Shown here one piece after another: positions 4,260-22,333 of a DNA stretch of 22,333 nucleotides. The position numbers were made by a program, and so were the translations under genes. The DNA lies in the IMG/VR virus record IMGVR_UViG_3300045413_000018, positions 1 through 22,333 of that record; one strand, given 5' to 3'. How positions within the stretch are numbered: position 1 is the first letter of the stretch; each line of letters begins with the position of its first letter. This stretch comes from a virus. The notes under the pieces are model-generated. The model was given only the letters and a program-made list of their open reading frames with translations, had not been told where the DNA came from and searched no databases.

Positions 4260-5759
4260 TCAGAACGGTAGGTCTTCGTCGTCGTCTTCTTCGAGTTCGC
4301 CGTCTTCCATTTCTTGTTGAGAAAGACGATGCCTCTTTTCTATCTCTTGCAGCAGTCTGTTGTATTTTTCTTCTCCGTAGAACTTTCTCAACGCATCCTC
4401 GATGCCTTTAGAACGAGCAGACATTCCGGTCATTCCCGAGTATTCCGCATCAACAAGAGCACTGTGACCGAATGTGCCGAACTCGCTCTTTGCAGCTTCC
4501 TCTGCCGCTCCTGATTCGGAGTTGAAGAAATCAAGGTCATCCATATCTTGTCTTATCTCTTCATCAGTAGGTGCGGCAACTTCAGGTGGGAGATCATCAT
4601 AATCATCATCATCATCATCAAGATCGTATGCTTCATCGACCCAGTCAGGGTCGTTCTCACGAAGTCGCCTATTATGCTCCATGTCTAATTCTCTCGTCAC
4701 TATATCGTGGGCTTCCCTGAAGTGTTTAGGATTCATCTCAATACGGGCTTGATCGAGGAAGTCTCTCAACCTTCCACCAGCAACACGAGTTCCGTATAAA
4801 AAGGAACGACCATTCGGCTTACCATCATCATCCCATCTTGGTCTGTTGTACCAAGTGACTTCATCTGCGTTCCTGATGGCCTCTAGGATAGGACGATATT
4901 TCTCTATGATGGTTTGTGGGATTTTTATCTTGTAGTCGTATGGCCCTTTACCATTGTCCGGATCGTATTCTGAAGGATCGTACTTCGTCAGTTCCCCGCC
5001 GTCGAGAATTGCATCAAGTAGTTCTCGATCATCGTAGTCGTGTGTCTGGATAATATCCGGTATCAACTCCGTCCACTTGACCTCTGGCTTGATCTCCTCG
5101 AACTGAGCATCGAGAATTTCTGGAACTACGTCAGAGATCAACTTCGGCAACTTGGGAACAGTCTTCATAGCGAGTTGAGTAAGACTGTTCCTCAGAAACT
5201 CACGGCGATCAGTTGGCCTCGTGATCGCGTTGGTAACTTGTCTCACGATAGGAGACACTTCTGTTGAGGCTTCTGGGATCACTGCTGGAAGATTCGTAGA
5301 GCCGCCACTAGCCATGCGACTACGAAGAGCACTGATGATTCCCTTTCCAGCAGCACGGAACGGCCCCGCTCCGATCAAGTCGAGCGGAGACATCGCAGAC
5401 TCAATCGGCGGGTCTTCTTGATGTATCCCTCTGCTGATGCTGTCTAGTACGTCCATGACGCTGTTGACGGACGCATCTTCAGAGTTCGGATCGATGCCCG
5501 TCCTCTGCATGTACTCTTCCATCCACCATGACGGATGGTCTTTCGACTTGAACTTGGAAGGCCAATGATACCGGCCTCCATCGGGCTCATAGCGTTCTGG
5601 ATAAACGCCCTCTTCCCACGCACCACGATAGTTGTAGTCAGGCGTGTTCAGATCAGGCTCCTCCTTGTATTCCCGTTTGAACTCGGAGAACCAAGGCAGC
5701 GAGCGAATCCACTCTTGGAAGTTAGCTTCCTCGAACTCGTCTTGGTATGGACGATTCAC
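4260..5759 (-). CDS. Probable internal virion protein, HWPS-type N-terminus plus one repeat module
   Basis: The product is 499 aa with a GTG start (5759-5757) that overlaps the M15 peptidase stop as GTGA; a GGAG lies about 8 nt upstream. Residues about 40-77 (DYNYRGAWEEG...GGRYHWPSKFKSKDHP) form a motif I know from many phage virion proteins, of the type 'DYRGAW...H(W)PS+FK.P.HP'. SPLDLIGAG at 124-132 parallels PTDLIG of the next protein. From 184 (DRREFLRNSLTQLA) to about 480 it has the same module that occurs twice in the downstream 662-aa protein, including IPQTIIEKYRPILEAIR and IEDALRKFYGEEKYNRLL. An Asp run lies at about 380-389 and the tail is very acidic (EDDDEDLPF). I infer a virion or ejection role; no enzyme motif is visible. 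Confidence 0.75.
   Translation of the reverse strand: MNRPYQDEFEEANFQEWIRSLPWFSEFKREYKEEPDLNTPDYNYRGAWEEGVYPERYEPDGGRYHWPSKFKSKDHPSWWMEEYMQRTGIDPNSEDASVNSVMDVLDSISRGIHQEDPPIESAMSPLDLIGAGPFRAAGKGIISALRSRMASGGSTNLPAVIPEASTEVSPIVRQVTNAITRPTDRREFLRNSLTQLAMKTVPKLPKLISDVVPEILDAQFEEIKPEVKWTELIPDIIQTHDYDDRELLDAILDGGELTKYDPSEYDPDNGKGPYDYKIKIPQTIIEKYRPILEAIRNADEVTWYNRPRWDDDGKPNGRSFLYGTRVAGGRLRDFLDQARIEMNPKHFREAHDIVTRELDMEHNRRLRENDPDWVDEAYDLDDDDDDYDDLPPEVAAPTDEEIRQDMDDLDFFNSESGAAEEAAKSEFGTFGHSALVDAEYSGMTGMSARSKGIEDALRKFYGEEKYNRLLQEIEKRHRLSQQEMEDGELEEDDDEDLPF
4592..4622. repeat. Trinucleotide (ATC/GAT) tract coding an Asp run
   Basis: A near-perfect ATC tract lies on the + strand, read as GAT (Asp) codons on the - strand. 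It gives about nine acidic residues near 380-389 of the 499-aa protein. The three-base unit means length changes would stay in frame. Confidence 0.7.
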
Positions 5760-17718: not shown

Positions 17719-18050
17719 CAGACTAAGAAGTCACCGAAGCCGATGACACACGTTGTCGATGCTCCAGATGCGATCAGCGAGAGAGTCTGATTTCCATCTC
17801 GGACGGAGAAGTTGACCTCCTGCCCCGGAGCAATCACGACATCGTAGGCAGAAGTTGTCGCTGTCGTTCCCTGCCTGACGTAGATGAGCTGAGAGGCGTG
17901 GTAGTTTCTGATGTTGCAGAAACGACCTTTAGGAAGCGACCCCATGAAAGAGTTCGCTGGTCCCGAAGGATGGATTTTTGGGATCAATACGTCGGAAGCC
18001 GACGCCCCAATCGATGCTGTCTGGGATGTGTTCGTGATGAACGCCGTCAT
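17718..18050 (-). CDS. Hypothetical small structural-type protein
   Basis: The product is 110 aa. ATG 18050 has a very good AGGAGAG site (18062-18056) 5 nt upstream. A TAG in the same frame lies at 18065-18063, just before that site. The sequence is Thr/Ser/Ala-rich with beta-like strands (FCNIRNYHASQLIYVRQG; DVVIAPGQEVNFSVRDGNQTLSLIAS; TTCVIGFGDFLV), like small phage head or tail decoration proteins. No family is recognised. The first 41 codons overlap, in another frame, the 3' end of the upstream DUF115-like gene (122 nt). The stop is shared with the terL start (TGATG). Confidence 0.72.
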   Translation of the reverse strand: MTAFITNTSQTASIGASASDVLIPKIHPSGPANSFMGSLPKGRFCNIRNYHASQLIYVRQGTTATTSAYDVVIAPGQEVNFSVRDGNQTLSLIASGASTTCVIGFGDFLV

Positions 18051-19035
18051 GACCGCTCTCCTCTAAGAGTTTGTTACGAAGGTTAGGATCGAGATGTAGA
18101 TGATGTAGTGCTGCCCAATCTGGGAGCAGCCCTCTTCCGATGAAGTTTACACGGAACTCCGGAGGGAATCTTCCCTCTTTTTGGGCGTTTAGAAGTGTTC
18201 CAAGTTCATGAGCCGCATCTTCTAGCTGCACGAACATTGGACTGTTCGTGACGTAGCGATGGATCAACTTCAACCTCGTCTCGGGATCAGACAGTCCCAC
18301 AGTGATCTTCATCGCTTCAATCTTCACGTTCTTCTTCTTAGCTTCAACGTGAAGATCATCACCGCTGTAGCAAGAGTCGAACCCTGCGAGGACCGTCTCT
18401 GTGAACCACATATAGTTGGGATTCGCGAGACGAAGGAAGCGGAGACCAGTAGTTGATCCACCACCGATGAGATGACTTGGATCAATCTCGCACAAGTCGG
18501 CGAGAATGTCCGGATTGTCGTCTCCCTGATAGTTGTGGACGACAGAGACCTTGAAGTCCTTCAGTTTGTCGAAGACATTCTGGTCGCAGTAAGAGCCAAC
18601 GAGGTACTCGGTCTCTTCTCTCGGTGTGAAGTAGTCACCTACCCACTGTCGAGAGTCGGTTAGGTACATGATGTCTACAGGAATGCCGTTGTCGAAGAGG
18701 AAGTCGTGAGCTGTGTTGACTGCTCCGATGACCGCTCCCTGTAGATGCATCCTTCTTATCCACTCGATGTCCTTCCGCAAAGAAGGCCCTGAGCCACATA
18801 TAATAAGTGTCTGACCGAGACCGACCTTGATGAACTTGTCGATCCCTGGATACTCCTGGCTTCTCTTCGCAATCCTGAAAGCTCTCTCTAGTTTACCCTC
18901 GTCTCCTGCATCGAGAGGATTTACGATTGAGATTCCCAAGCCAGTACTGAATTCATACTCATTAGAGAAGACGAGTCCTTCATTCATTTTCTTCCTGATT
19001 TTCAGTCTGAGCGCAGTATCGTCCATTGCCTTCAT
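17929..19035 (-). CDS. DUF115/MptE-like protein (sialyltransferase-like fold), inserted between terS and terL
   Basis: The product is 368 aa, with ATG 19035 overlapping the terS stop as ATGA. After about 70 residues comes the nucleotide-binding motif LIICGSGPSLRKDI (77-90), then GAVNTAHDFLFDNGIPVD (104-121) and YLTD (124-127). GGGSTTGLRFLRLANPNYMWF and LAGFDSCYSG (191-224) follow. The order G(S/N)GPSL, then D, then a Thr/Gly-rich helix start, then a Gly-Phe-Asp strand is what I know from DUF115/MptE-like proteins. Those are related to the GT42 sialyltransferase/Maf glycosyltransferase group, which would use an activated sugar or similar nucleotide. The substrate here is unknown. The C-terminal ~40 residues after LLPDWAALHHLHLDPNL overlap the next gene and may not be authentic. 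Confidence 0.72.
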   Translation of the reverse strand: MKAMDDTALRLKIRKKMNEGLVFSNEYEFSTGLGISIVNPLDAGDEGKLERAFRIAKRSQEYPGIDKFIKVGLGQTLIICGSGPSLRKDIEWIRRMHLQGAVIGAVNTAHDFLFDNGIPVDIMYLTDSRQWVGDYFTPREETEYLVGSYCDQNVFDKLKDFKVSVVHNYQGDDNPDILADLCEIDPSHLIGGGSTTGLRFLRLANPNYMWFTETVLAGFDSCYSGDDLHVEAKKKNVKIEAMKITVGLSDPETRLKLIHRYVTNSPMFVQLEDAAHELGTLLNAQKEGRFPPEFRVNFIGRGLLPDWAALHHLHLDPNLRNKLLEESGHDGVHHEHIPDSIDWGVGFRRIDPKNPSFGTSELFHGVAS

Positions 19036-20347: not shown

Positions 20348-20383
20348 GAAGGAGAGAGCCGCCTTCCAACGACTCTCTCCTTC
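20348..20383 (-). terminator. Intrinsic terminator-like hairpin on the leftward transcript
   Basis: On the - strand a 14-bp stem (one G-U pair; arms 20370-20383 and 20348-20361) closes an 8-nt loop and is followed by TTTCTTAGG. This is a fair rho-independent terminator downstream of the 123-aa gene and upstream of the 238-aa gene. Its stem core is GGAGAGAG/CTCTCTCC. The T-run is short, so termination is likely partial. On the + strand no T-run follows. Confidence 0.55.
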
Positions 20384-20428: not shown

Positions 20429-20800
20429 TTAAGTCAATGCAGGACCACCATTCCCTGACAAGTCGGCGGGGAAGCTCGGTCGAGTCTTCATTGTCGCGAT
20501 CTCATTGATCGTGTTCGAGTTGCTTGTCGAGTTCGCCGCGAGAGTCGTGATCGTCTGACTCTCAATCGTTCGAACTCCACCGAGTTGACCAGCATCCGAG
20601 TCAACTTGCTGCACTCGCTTGTTCGTCACGCTACCTGTCGTGGAACCTGATGCAGTGATGAGGTCTACGATCTGATCTCGCAGTGCTTTCGCGGTCTTTC
20701 CGTTACGAACCCGCACGAAGAGCTGTGAAATCCCAGGACGCCGGTTGTTCAGGAGTGAATAACCACCTGATCCCCAGAAGTCCGCGTAGAAAGCTGCCAT
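20429..20800 (-). CDS. Hypothetical protein, first gene of the late operon
   Basis: The product is 123 aa, with ATG 20800 preceded by GAGAGGA about 8 nt upstream. The N-terminus is aromatic and Gly-rich (MAAFYADFWGSGGYSLLNN). A helical segment follows (GKTAKALRDQIVDLITASG), then Thr/Ser/Asn-rich repeats (VRTIESQTITTLAANSTSNSNTINEIAT) and a C-terminal LSGNGGPALT. The final GNGG-type ending and the Thr-rich middle are seen in small phage structural proteins, but I assign no family. It is the gene closest to the large intergenic region and would be the first translated on the leftward transcript. Two hairpins follow it, so its expression may be set apart from the rest. Confidence 0.7.
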   Translation of the reverse strand: MAAFYADFWGSGGYSLLNNRRPGISQLFVRVRNGKTAKALRDQIVDLITASGSTTGSVTNKRVQQVDSDAGQLGGVRTIESQTITTLAANSTSNSNTINEIATMKTRPSFPADLSGNGGPALT

Positions 20801-20960
20801 GTTCGTGTCCTCTCATGGAAGGGTGAAGGAATCCCCACCGATTTTCCCCCGGCGGGGGGTATCCCCATTTTAGAAACAAAAACGGAAAAAGCAAGAGAGA
20901 AGGGGGGTGCCTTTCTTTCTTATATAGTAGAAGGGACGAAAGAAAGTAACACGAACACAC

Positions 20961-21027
20961 GAAATGGGTGAACAGGCCCCACGAGGAGCGAAGCTCCTCG
21001 ACCATCATCGATGTCCCGAACCATTTC
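20961..21027. repeat. Stem-loop: 8-bp perfect hairpin nested in an outer 7-bp pair
   Basis: CGAGGAGC-GAA-GCTCCTCG (20982-21000) is a perfect 8-bp stem with a GAA triloop. Outside it GAAATGG (20961-20967) can pair with CCATTTC (21021-21027). It would lie in the leader of the leftward late transcript, about 160-200 nt before the first start codon. No T-run follows on either strand, so I do not call it a terminator. Confidence 0.55.
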
Positions 21028-21186
21028 ACCACATAGATCACCACATACCACACATAGAACACGATAGAACGCAGAAGCTCACAACTCATCACGACTTCCA
21101 CCCGGTTCCCCTCTCTTTATGTAGATAGAAGAAAGAAAGACACAGGGATCACCTGGAGATGGTCGATTGCACCTCCTTCGATCTTA

Positions 21187-21195
21187 TTTATACCA
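21187..21195 (-). promoter_or_regulatory. Possible leftward extended -10 element
   Basis: On the - strand the sequence reads TGGTATAAA, a TGn-TATAAT-like extended -10. No good TTGACA lies 16-18 nt upstream. It could start the leftward late transcript with a roughly 380-nt leader. A second TATATA at 20921-20926 is another weak possibility. The phage may use its own promoter type, so this is only a suggestion. Confidence 0.25.
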
Positions 21196-21246
21196 TTCTA
21201 CTCAGGAAAGTGCCCCCCTTTTGGGAATCGTGGGGGGGAGAGGACC

Positions 21247-21312
21247 ACAACAAGCACACAACAAGCAGATACCAAGCAGATAACAAGGAGACACCAAGCA
21301 CACACCAAGGAA
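21247..21312. repeat. Six tandem 11-bp degenerate repeats (iteron-like)
   Basis: Units begin at 21247, 21258, 21269, 21280, 21291 and 21302 with consensus A-Y-A-M-CAAG-S-A-S (for example ACAACAAGCAC, ATACCAAGCAG, ACACCAAGGAA). CAAG recurs exactly every 11 bp, about one helical turn, so all sites face the same side of DNA. Two further units in the same 11-bp phase occur at about 21550-21570 (ACAAGCAAATAACAAGG). Arrays like this usually bind an initiator or repressor protein. Confidence 0.7.
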
Positions 21313-21428
21313 CAAACGGAGTTCGCTGCTAGATCAGCGTCTTACCCACCACTCCCTTTGCTTTCTACATAGTAGTCAGTGTGTGTTGTACCTTCATGTG
21401 TTCTTCCTTCTACATCGTATGGGCGTCC

Positions 21429-21497
21429 CCTCGTCGGACTTCTCACGAAGCCGACGAGGTCAGGCTCTCGTCGCCGCCCAAGAGCGGCGATGGAGCC
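21429..21497. repeat. Two adjacent strong hairpins
   Basis: The first pairs CCTCGTCGG (21429-21437) with CCGACGAGG (21451-21459), and inside it CTTC with GAAG around a TCAC loop. The second pairs TCGCCGC (21471-21477) with GCGGCGA (21484-21490), extended after an internal loop by GGCTC (21463-21467) with GAGCC (21493-21497). Both are GC-rich with no T-run after them. They could be part of a folded RNA or protein-binding sites. Confidence 0.6.
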
Positions 21498-21570
21498 CCG
21501 TCCCCAAGAGGCCGGGTCTCCACCCTAAAGGGCTTCGATCCTTGACGCGAACAAGCAAATAACAAGGTGT

Positions 21571-21683
21571 CGATATTGCGTCGAGGAGAGTGACTCGTCT
21601 TCGGGTCCTCCCCATGTTTTATTTTTAATCGCAGTATGGGGACCCCCCCCTACAGCCTTCGTCTTTCTCCTGCCGCAATATCG
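21571..21683. repeat. 10-bp inverted repeat enclosing a second stem
   Basis: CGATATTGCG (21571-21580) and CGCAATATCG (21674-21683) are perfect inverted copies about 93 bp apart. Between them GGGT...CCCCAT (21603-21615) pairs with ATGGGGACCC (21636-21645) around an AT-rich loop (GTTTTATTTTTAATCGCAGT). The AT-rich loop within nested stems is origin-like, which is inference. Confidence 0.55.
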
Positions 21684-21689
21684 AACGCA

Positions 21690-21736
21690 TTGGGCGATGG
21701 GAGATGCACTCCCGTATCCGCCCTCCCATCGCCCAA
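21690..21736. repeat. 14-bp perfect inverted repeat
   Basis: TTGGGCGATGGGAG (21690-21703) and CTCCCATCGCCCAA (21723-21736) are perfect complements with a 19-nt loop. In addition GGGAG...CTCCC inside the loop can compete for pairing. No T-run follows on either strand. It is the longest perfect stem in the intergenic region. Confidence 0.65.
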
Positions 21737-21822
21737 GGCTTTGTATAACAAACAAGTGTCCTAAAACGTACCACAGGACCGCAAGTTCCCGCTGTCAAGA
21801 CCGGCGGGGGAGCATGAACAAA

Positions 21823-21853
21823 CTTTTAATGCGGGAATAAACCGCATTAAAAG
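21823..21853. repeat. 12-bp perfect inverted repeat, AT-rich base
   Basis: CTTTTAATGCGG (21823-21834) and CCGCATTAAAAG (21842-21853) with loop GAATAAA. The T4/A4 at the stem base give a terminator-like shape for both strands, though only TTTG follows on the - strand. It could equally be an operator for a dimeric repressor. Confidence 0.6.
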
Positions 21854-21884
21854 CGCGACTGCATCGAGTAGTTGGAGAGGGGAA

Positions 21885-21935
21885 GAGTTCGCTGACCGTC
21901 GCGGCTTCGCTTTGTCACCCCCGCCGCGAGAACTC
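21885..21935. repeat. Hairpin with 7-bp and 6-bp stems
   Basis: TCGCGGC (21899-21905) pairs with GCCGCGA (21923-21929), and outside it GAGTTC (21885-21890) pairs with GAACTC (21930-21935), leaving an 8-nt bulge on the left. The loop is 17 nt. It lies inside the long inverted repeat. Confidence 0.5.
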
Positions 21936-22058
21936 ATACTTATTCTTTTTGCTTCGCAGTTCTTTTGAATGAGTTGTCTTGACAGCTCGCGGTCCTGTGG
22001 TCCTGCGGATGAGTCATGTCAATCCAGGCAGACAAACCAAGCAAAAGGAGTGCGTATC

Positions 22059-22307
22059 ATGGAATCGTGTGTATCAATCATCGTCACAGCATCGCTGCCG
22101 AATTCGGATCGAGTTCGCTTCTATCGTGAGTACTTCCTCTCTCCGTTCGAGCATTACAGCAGGAATGGGCGTGGTGAGATCACGCTCAAGTACAGAGTGC
22201 AGCGTGCGATGCAGCGTCGGGTGACGATGCTGAACTACCGCGCTCGTTCACTGAAGAAGCGCGCTGTCTTCAAGTTCCATATCAGAGATCGGAAAGGGGG
22301 GGAGTGA
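22059..22307 (+). CDS. Small basic hypothetical protein, first rightward gene
   Basis: The product is 82 aa from ATG 22059, chosen over an upstream in-frame ATG at 21969 because AAAGGAG lies about 9 nt before it. The protein is basic and Arg-rich (VRFYREYFLSPFEHYSRNGRG; YRVQRAMQRRVTMLNYRARSLKKRAVFKFHIRDRKGGE). It has no membrane segment and no recognisable domain. It is the first gene transcribed away from the late operon, so it probably belongs to the early or replication side. Its charge would allow nucleic-acid binding, but that is only suggestive. A G-run containing GGGGAG near its end serves the next gene. Confidence 0.72.
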   Translation: MESCVSIIVTASLPNSDRVRFYREYFLSPFEHYSRNGRGEITLKYRVQRAMQRRVTMLNYRARSLKKRAVFKFHIRDRKGGE

Positions 22308-22312
22308 CCGCC

Positions 22313-22333
22313 ATGAAGATCGCATTAAACAGC
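22313..22333 (+). CDS. Start of next rightward gene, cut by window edge
   Basis: ATG 22313 follows the upstream stop by a few bases with a G-rich ribosome site (GGGGGGGAG) 8-9 nt before it. Only seven codons (MKIALNS) are visible. The spacing supports a real start, but nothing can be said of function. Confidence 0.5.

Follow-up and report, generated by a model that had tools for sequence, protein, structure and literature searches.

What is the role of a long inverted repeat that closes over internal hairpins next to the first rightward gene of a virus, and does it act as RNA or as DNA? The sequence that we analysed, referred to here as the window, is a 22,333-base IMG/VR virus record that stops at position 22333. 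Up to about 20.8 kb its genes are read leftward, and they include structural genes: the major capsid protein (phrog_9953, E 9.7e-50), the large terminase subunit (phrog_2, E 4.4e-29) and, as a weak match only, the small terminase subunit (phrog_2538, E 7.4e-5). The capsid and terminase matches identify the virus as a tailed phage. Between its two terminase genes lies an MptE-like pterin diphosphokinase domain (17929-19035, − strand; PF01973, E 4.6e-16). The first leftward gene, gene1 (20429-20800, − strand), has homologues in related phages and is followed at 20348-20383 by a − strand hairpin whose perfect stem spans 11 bp and is trailed by a T-rich tail, likely a terminator or attenuator within the structural operon. 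The first rightward gene (22059-22307, + strand) encodes 82 amino acids with no assigned function and is preceded by an aaaggag ribosome site; the same frame can also be read from an ATG at 21969 that lacks such a site, and the record ends 26 nt past the gene. No convincing gene-like ORF was found between 20801 and 22058, the longest (132 amino acids) overlapping gene1 on the same strand. The element thus lies in a divergent intergenic region, and it ends 57 nt ahead of the start at 22059, the position by the first rightward gene that had been noted originally.

The fold of the element is built from three perfect blocks. The outer helix P1 pairs 21770-21782 with 21989-22001 over 13 bp, with pair probabilities of 0.83-1.0 in an 859-nt context, and the inner helix P2, recovered by both stem search and folding, pairs 21791-21801 with 21976-21986 over 11 bp. 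The original prediction had described blocks of 12 and 11 bp joined by linkers of 8 and 2 nt; the linkers and the inner block are as described and the outer block is one pair longer. A third block of 9 bp, P3 (21802-21810 with 21918-21926, probability 0.92-1.0), directly abuts P2 on the 5′ side, while a 49-nt insert on the 3′ side contains P4 (21928-21978), the weaker side hairpin of a three-way junction with a probability of about 0.5. In the fold P1, P2 and P3 together comprise 33 bp with an internal loop and the junction, so that a long helix with an internal loop leads through a three-way junction into a multiloop. This multiloop carries P5 (21823-21853), the enclosed 12-bp hairpin of the prediction, which is indeed perfect (21823-21834 with 21842-21853, 7-nt loop). 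P1, P2, P3 and P5 all have probabilities near 1 in the full 859-nt context. The second enclosed hairpin, of 7 + 6 bp, exists as a potential pairing at 21885-21935 (21899-21905 with 21923-21929 and 21885-21890 with 21930-21935), but it is absent from the best fold because P3 needs the same bases; forcing it gave −103.1 against −108.0 kcal/mol, 4.9 kcal/mol worse. Among the options offered at the outset, the best supported is a structured RNA built around a three-way junction, although the helix that forms the junction is not the one that had been named.

The inverted repeat with its very stable fold is real and far beyond chance expectation. The window contains 12 perfect stems that are 11 bp or longer and span up to 260 nt, compared to a mean of 1.2 in 40 dinucleotide shuffles (sd 1.3, maximum 4). 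Six of the 12 fall within 20801-22058, where shuffling the region 1000 times gave 0.058 on average and never more than 2, and a nested pair of stems appeared in none of these 1000 shuffles, in agreement with the earlier judgement that a chance origin is very unlikely. The RNA folding energy of 21771-22000 corresponds to z scores of −7.8 on the + strand and −7.0 on the − strand, and the DNA fold of 21768-22003 to −8.7 and −9.8 for the two strands. A scan of the whole record in 369 windows of 230 nt found coding windows that are equally extreme (19441 at z −8.4, 61 at −6.8). A low z score alone is therefore not special in this record; the long perfect nested helices are.

The element is the last of several structured stretches that occupy 21425-22001, between the leftward structural genes and the gene at 22059. 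Upstream hairpins, two of them adjacent, lie at 21425-21545 (z −4.96 on the + and −3.36 on the − strand). They are followed by a second long-range closed element at 21570-21684 (−4.57 and −4.22), in which a perfect 11-bp closing helix, with a probability of only about 0.45 in the 859-nt context, surrounds hairpins, and by a perfect 14-bp hairpin at 21690-21736 (−5.34 and −4.41). The stretch 21316-21425 is unstructured (z 0.32), as is 20860-21315. Within the latter, tandem 11-bp direct repeats on the + strand (21249-21314) are made of six units spaced 11 nt apart, each with one CAAG, and one unit per helical turn suggests binding of a protein on one face of the DNA. Arrays with the same period are also found upstream of gene1 in 4 of 103 relatives, a set in which many records stop short of this region (L006 4774-5241, L012 263-286, L016 17-72 and L022 459-587). 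These arrays are mostly GT-rich in the direction of the structural genes and their sequence differs between phages. As a post hoc observation, three of the five GCGAAGC/GCTTCGC sites in the window are located within 1 kb of the region (20988, 21904 and 21951).

Which strand, then, is likely to carry the function? The fold of 21200-22058 gave z −8.91 on the + strand versus −5.92 on the − strand (80 shuffles each), and the + strand was the more extreme in all four structured pieces and in 9 of 13 windows. A hairpin at 21856-21874 contains two G-U pairs as read from the sequence, and therefore exists on the + strand only. The unpaired linkers of the element are A-rich on the + strand. Strand asymmetry, linkers and G-U hairpin favour an RNA that is read rightward, although they do not prove it: the strand bias is modest and the DNA folds equally well, so that a role at the DNA level, if less likely, may still apply. 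No sigma-70-like promoter pointing right was found ahead of the element. Each arm contains TTGACA reading outward; sigma-70 promoters within the arms were considered and rejected, as the promoter scan reports no such site there.

Taken at sequence level, we give about an even chance to the reading that the element is part of a long, structured, cis-acting leader RNA that runs rightward before the early gene at 22059. On this reading a structured RNA transcribed rightward across 21.2-22.05 kb would have the element as its 3′ domain, would serve the early gene as a long 5′ leader and would act in cis on the expression of the genes behind it; the fold leaves the ribosome site behind the closing helix free. 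Both the rightward transcription and the cis role on downstream genes are what we infer here. The likeliest forms of such a leader would be a processing or stabilising structure of the RNase III type, or a put-like antitermination RNA allowing polymerase to read through terminators. The put-like form is attractive because the early regions of several relatives contain small genes separated by terminators, which are visible by eye behind small early genes in L108, L112, L130, L043 and L090.

Homologues of the element were sought in 167 relatives (L002-L168), collected through the terminase (23 loci), the capsid protein (the best 80 of 503 matches) and gene1 (65 loci, one overlapping); several of them are the same contig entered twice. 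Among the best 80 of 503 capsid matches, the nearest relatives are about 75% identical in the capsid protein, and for the terminase the identity is 45-49% over most of its length. The 10 phage records with a capsid match all fall below 60% identity, and no close cultured member of this phage group was found. With blastn the element gave no homologue in phages, two matches of about 41 bases in plasmids (E 0.09) that we judged to be chance, and only 18-25-base matches in the relatives (E 0.27 or worse). Exact patterns of the arms, hairpins and repeats had no hit in viral_contigs, and the arm pattern none in genome_contigs. A covariance model (R1), into which the window sequence was entered twice and which is hence without covariation and insensitive, returned only the window itself below E 2.9 among 100 sources (99 of 103 relatives, L100-L103 left out) and nothing below E 1.8 in 64 further loci, a coverage of 163 loci of distant relatives; in 16 whole records it gave no hit either, although an empty answer from that search carries no weight. 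With nearest relatives this distant, a non-coding element could have diverged past detection. In viral_contigs neither the 82-aa gene nor gene1 as a single query found relatives, and the capsid alignment had no match in genome_contigs, hence no host was assigned. A DNA profile of the region upstream of gene1, built from 26 relatives, did not recover the window region, its best match (E 4.7) lying elsewhere; the resemblance of C-rich motifs at 21211-21240 to motifs in the relatives is therefore an impression by eye.

We compared the divergent region in 15 records with the window, and then in 21 with the window. Fold peaks on the early strand are scattered in most records and lie at a similar distance in many relatives. 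As homologous RNAs they were rejected: the five that were read as sequence, in L108, L112, L130, L043 and L090, are by eye terminators behind small genes. A hairpin array with z −7 to −9 just ahead of the first early gene of L095 was likewise dismissed as a homologue, since part of it is missing in L106 and blastn gave no similarity to the window region. The near-identical phages L095 (850-1430) and L106 (345-800) share 98% of gene1, yet in the first early gene's leader L106 has 60 nt in place of 184 nt of L095 hairpin DNA. The early side of the region is therefore variable in this group. Such gain or loss suggests that structure of this kind can be dispensable, and the variability is evidence of fast turnover and counts weakly against an indispensable function. 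In L006 the palindrome form GTTTACACGTGTAAAC is seen by eye four times (about 2739-2760, 4740-4755, 4840-4855 and 5314-5331), one copy being diverged; these are perhaps operator sites.

The same variability fits a reading in which the hairpin DNA is neutral or mobile and the intergenic stretch hypervariable, gaining and losing inverted duplications and hairpins without function. The complete absence of homologues from our searches and the L095/L106 exchange point this way, but three perfect blocks joined by unrelated linkers do not look like a decaying inverted duplication. Marks of a miniature inverted-repeat transposon are also missing: no direct repeat of the target-site kind is seen to flank 21770-22001, and the arm pattern gave no second copy in viral_contigs or genome_contigs. 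We regard neutral hairpin DNA as improbable. Somewhat less improbable, though still unlikely, is a DNA-level structure such as a replication origin or initiation region, with hairpins formed on one strand and the 11-bp repeats bound by an initiator. Folding of both strands as DNA, the divergent intergenic location, the repeats themselves and their counterparts upstream of gene1 would all suit an origin; the + strand bias over the whole region and the dependence of one hairpin on G-U pairs would not. The repeats are moreover 450 nt distant from the element, and no replication gene was seen among the ORFs scanned in the window. A pair of operators bridged by a looping protein, also offered in the original prediction, is weakly supported: the pairing runs on through the third block as one helix, and the search of viral_contigs and genome_contigs gave no further copy of the arms.

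An RNA need not be a leader. The size and the density of structure over 21425-22001 would also suit a free-standing, GOLLD- or ROOL-like non-coding RNA of large size (about 600-850 nt), and the phage location is shared with these RNAs (PMC12286853). No Rfam match was obtained for either strand of the whole window at E up to 1, there is no tRNA gene in the 22.3 kb (the record being a fragment), no terminator-like site follows 22001 on the + strand, and the stretch 21316-21425 is unstructured. A free-standing RNA ranks among the least probable readings considered here. We place at the same low level a bolder proposal, in which 21.2-22.05 kb would encode a large ornate phage RNA of an orphan class, early-acting and from a phage group that our searches met only in metagenomes, with repeated 11-nt single-stranded motifs followed by at least four structured domains, the last closed by the inverted repeat.

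Ahead of the structural genes, the comparison with relatives also revealed a separate short hairpin kept by compensatory change. It has a 7-bp stem and lies at 20982-21000 on the structural-gene (−) strand. In 27 of 30 relatives (all except L126, L135 and L136) a hairpin of seven stem positions with the loop CT(N or NN)CG precedes the gene1 match by 106-194 nt; a single stem position is mismatched in eight of the 27, and near-duplicates occur among the loci. In the window 20982-21000 is the only hairpin of this type, on the same strand and about 190 nt before gene1, where shuffling leads to an expectation of 0.06 for stems of at least 7 bp. An alignment of 28 rows (25 distinct) showed pairing in 95.4% of cells, a percentage inflated by picking the rows with a search that rewards pairing, and changes on both sides at all seven pairs (19 cells). 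None of 500 shuffles reached any of the five measures used. On the opposite strand, here the + strand, the loop reads C(GNA)G or C(GNNA)G. In this it resembles the early promoter hairpins of N4, for which the same closing pair and the same loop G and A are needed for extrusion (PMC4496689). In many of the relatives that were printed, a sigma-70-like TTGACA/TATAAT-like pair is visible by eye after the hairpin. The hairpin may act as RNA or be extruded from DNA; judged by sequence comparison, it is better supported than the inverted-repeat element itself.

How does the putative leader compare with known systems? In retrons, the inverted repeat of msr-msd closes internal hairpins upstream of a gene. 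The element likewise consists of an inverted repeat around internal hairpins ahead of a gene, but no reverse transcriptase is present among the ORFs scanned up to the record end at 22333, past which a later one may lie. The packaging RNA of phi29, whose family is included in Rfam, has ends paired by a long helix and a three-way junction. Here a long end-pairing helix, a three-way junction and nearby packaging genes are found as well; the differences are the lack of an Rfam match and a terminase with a large and, weakly matched, a small subunit. T7 and lambda have RNase III sites in their leaders, such a site being a long near-perfect RNA duplex in the early leader that is cut in vivo. P1, P2 and P3 are predicted to give 33 bp, interrupted by an internal loop and the junction, and would be a candidate for such a site. 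With GOLLD and ROOL (PMC12286853) the region shares long, dense structure of unknown function in a phage intergenic region; these RNAs, which are discrete long non-coding transcripts, are often found near tRNA genes, whereas here we found neither Rfam match, tRNA nor conservation. The put element of HK022 (PMC9378689), about 70 nt long, comprises two stem-loops downstream of an early promoter and suppresses downstream terminators without a protein factor. As in HK022, the window, from a tailed phage, has predicted RNA stem-loops ahead of early genes, and the adjacent pair at about 21429-21496 is reminiscent of put with its two stems. In contrast to put, no sigma-70-like promoter was found before the 21429-21496 stem-loops, and the candidate leader, with its long-range closing helices, would extend over some 600-850 nt instead of about 70 nt. 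Should it prove to be a leader RNA, it would be an unusually large example among phage RNAs with cis control over early genes.
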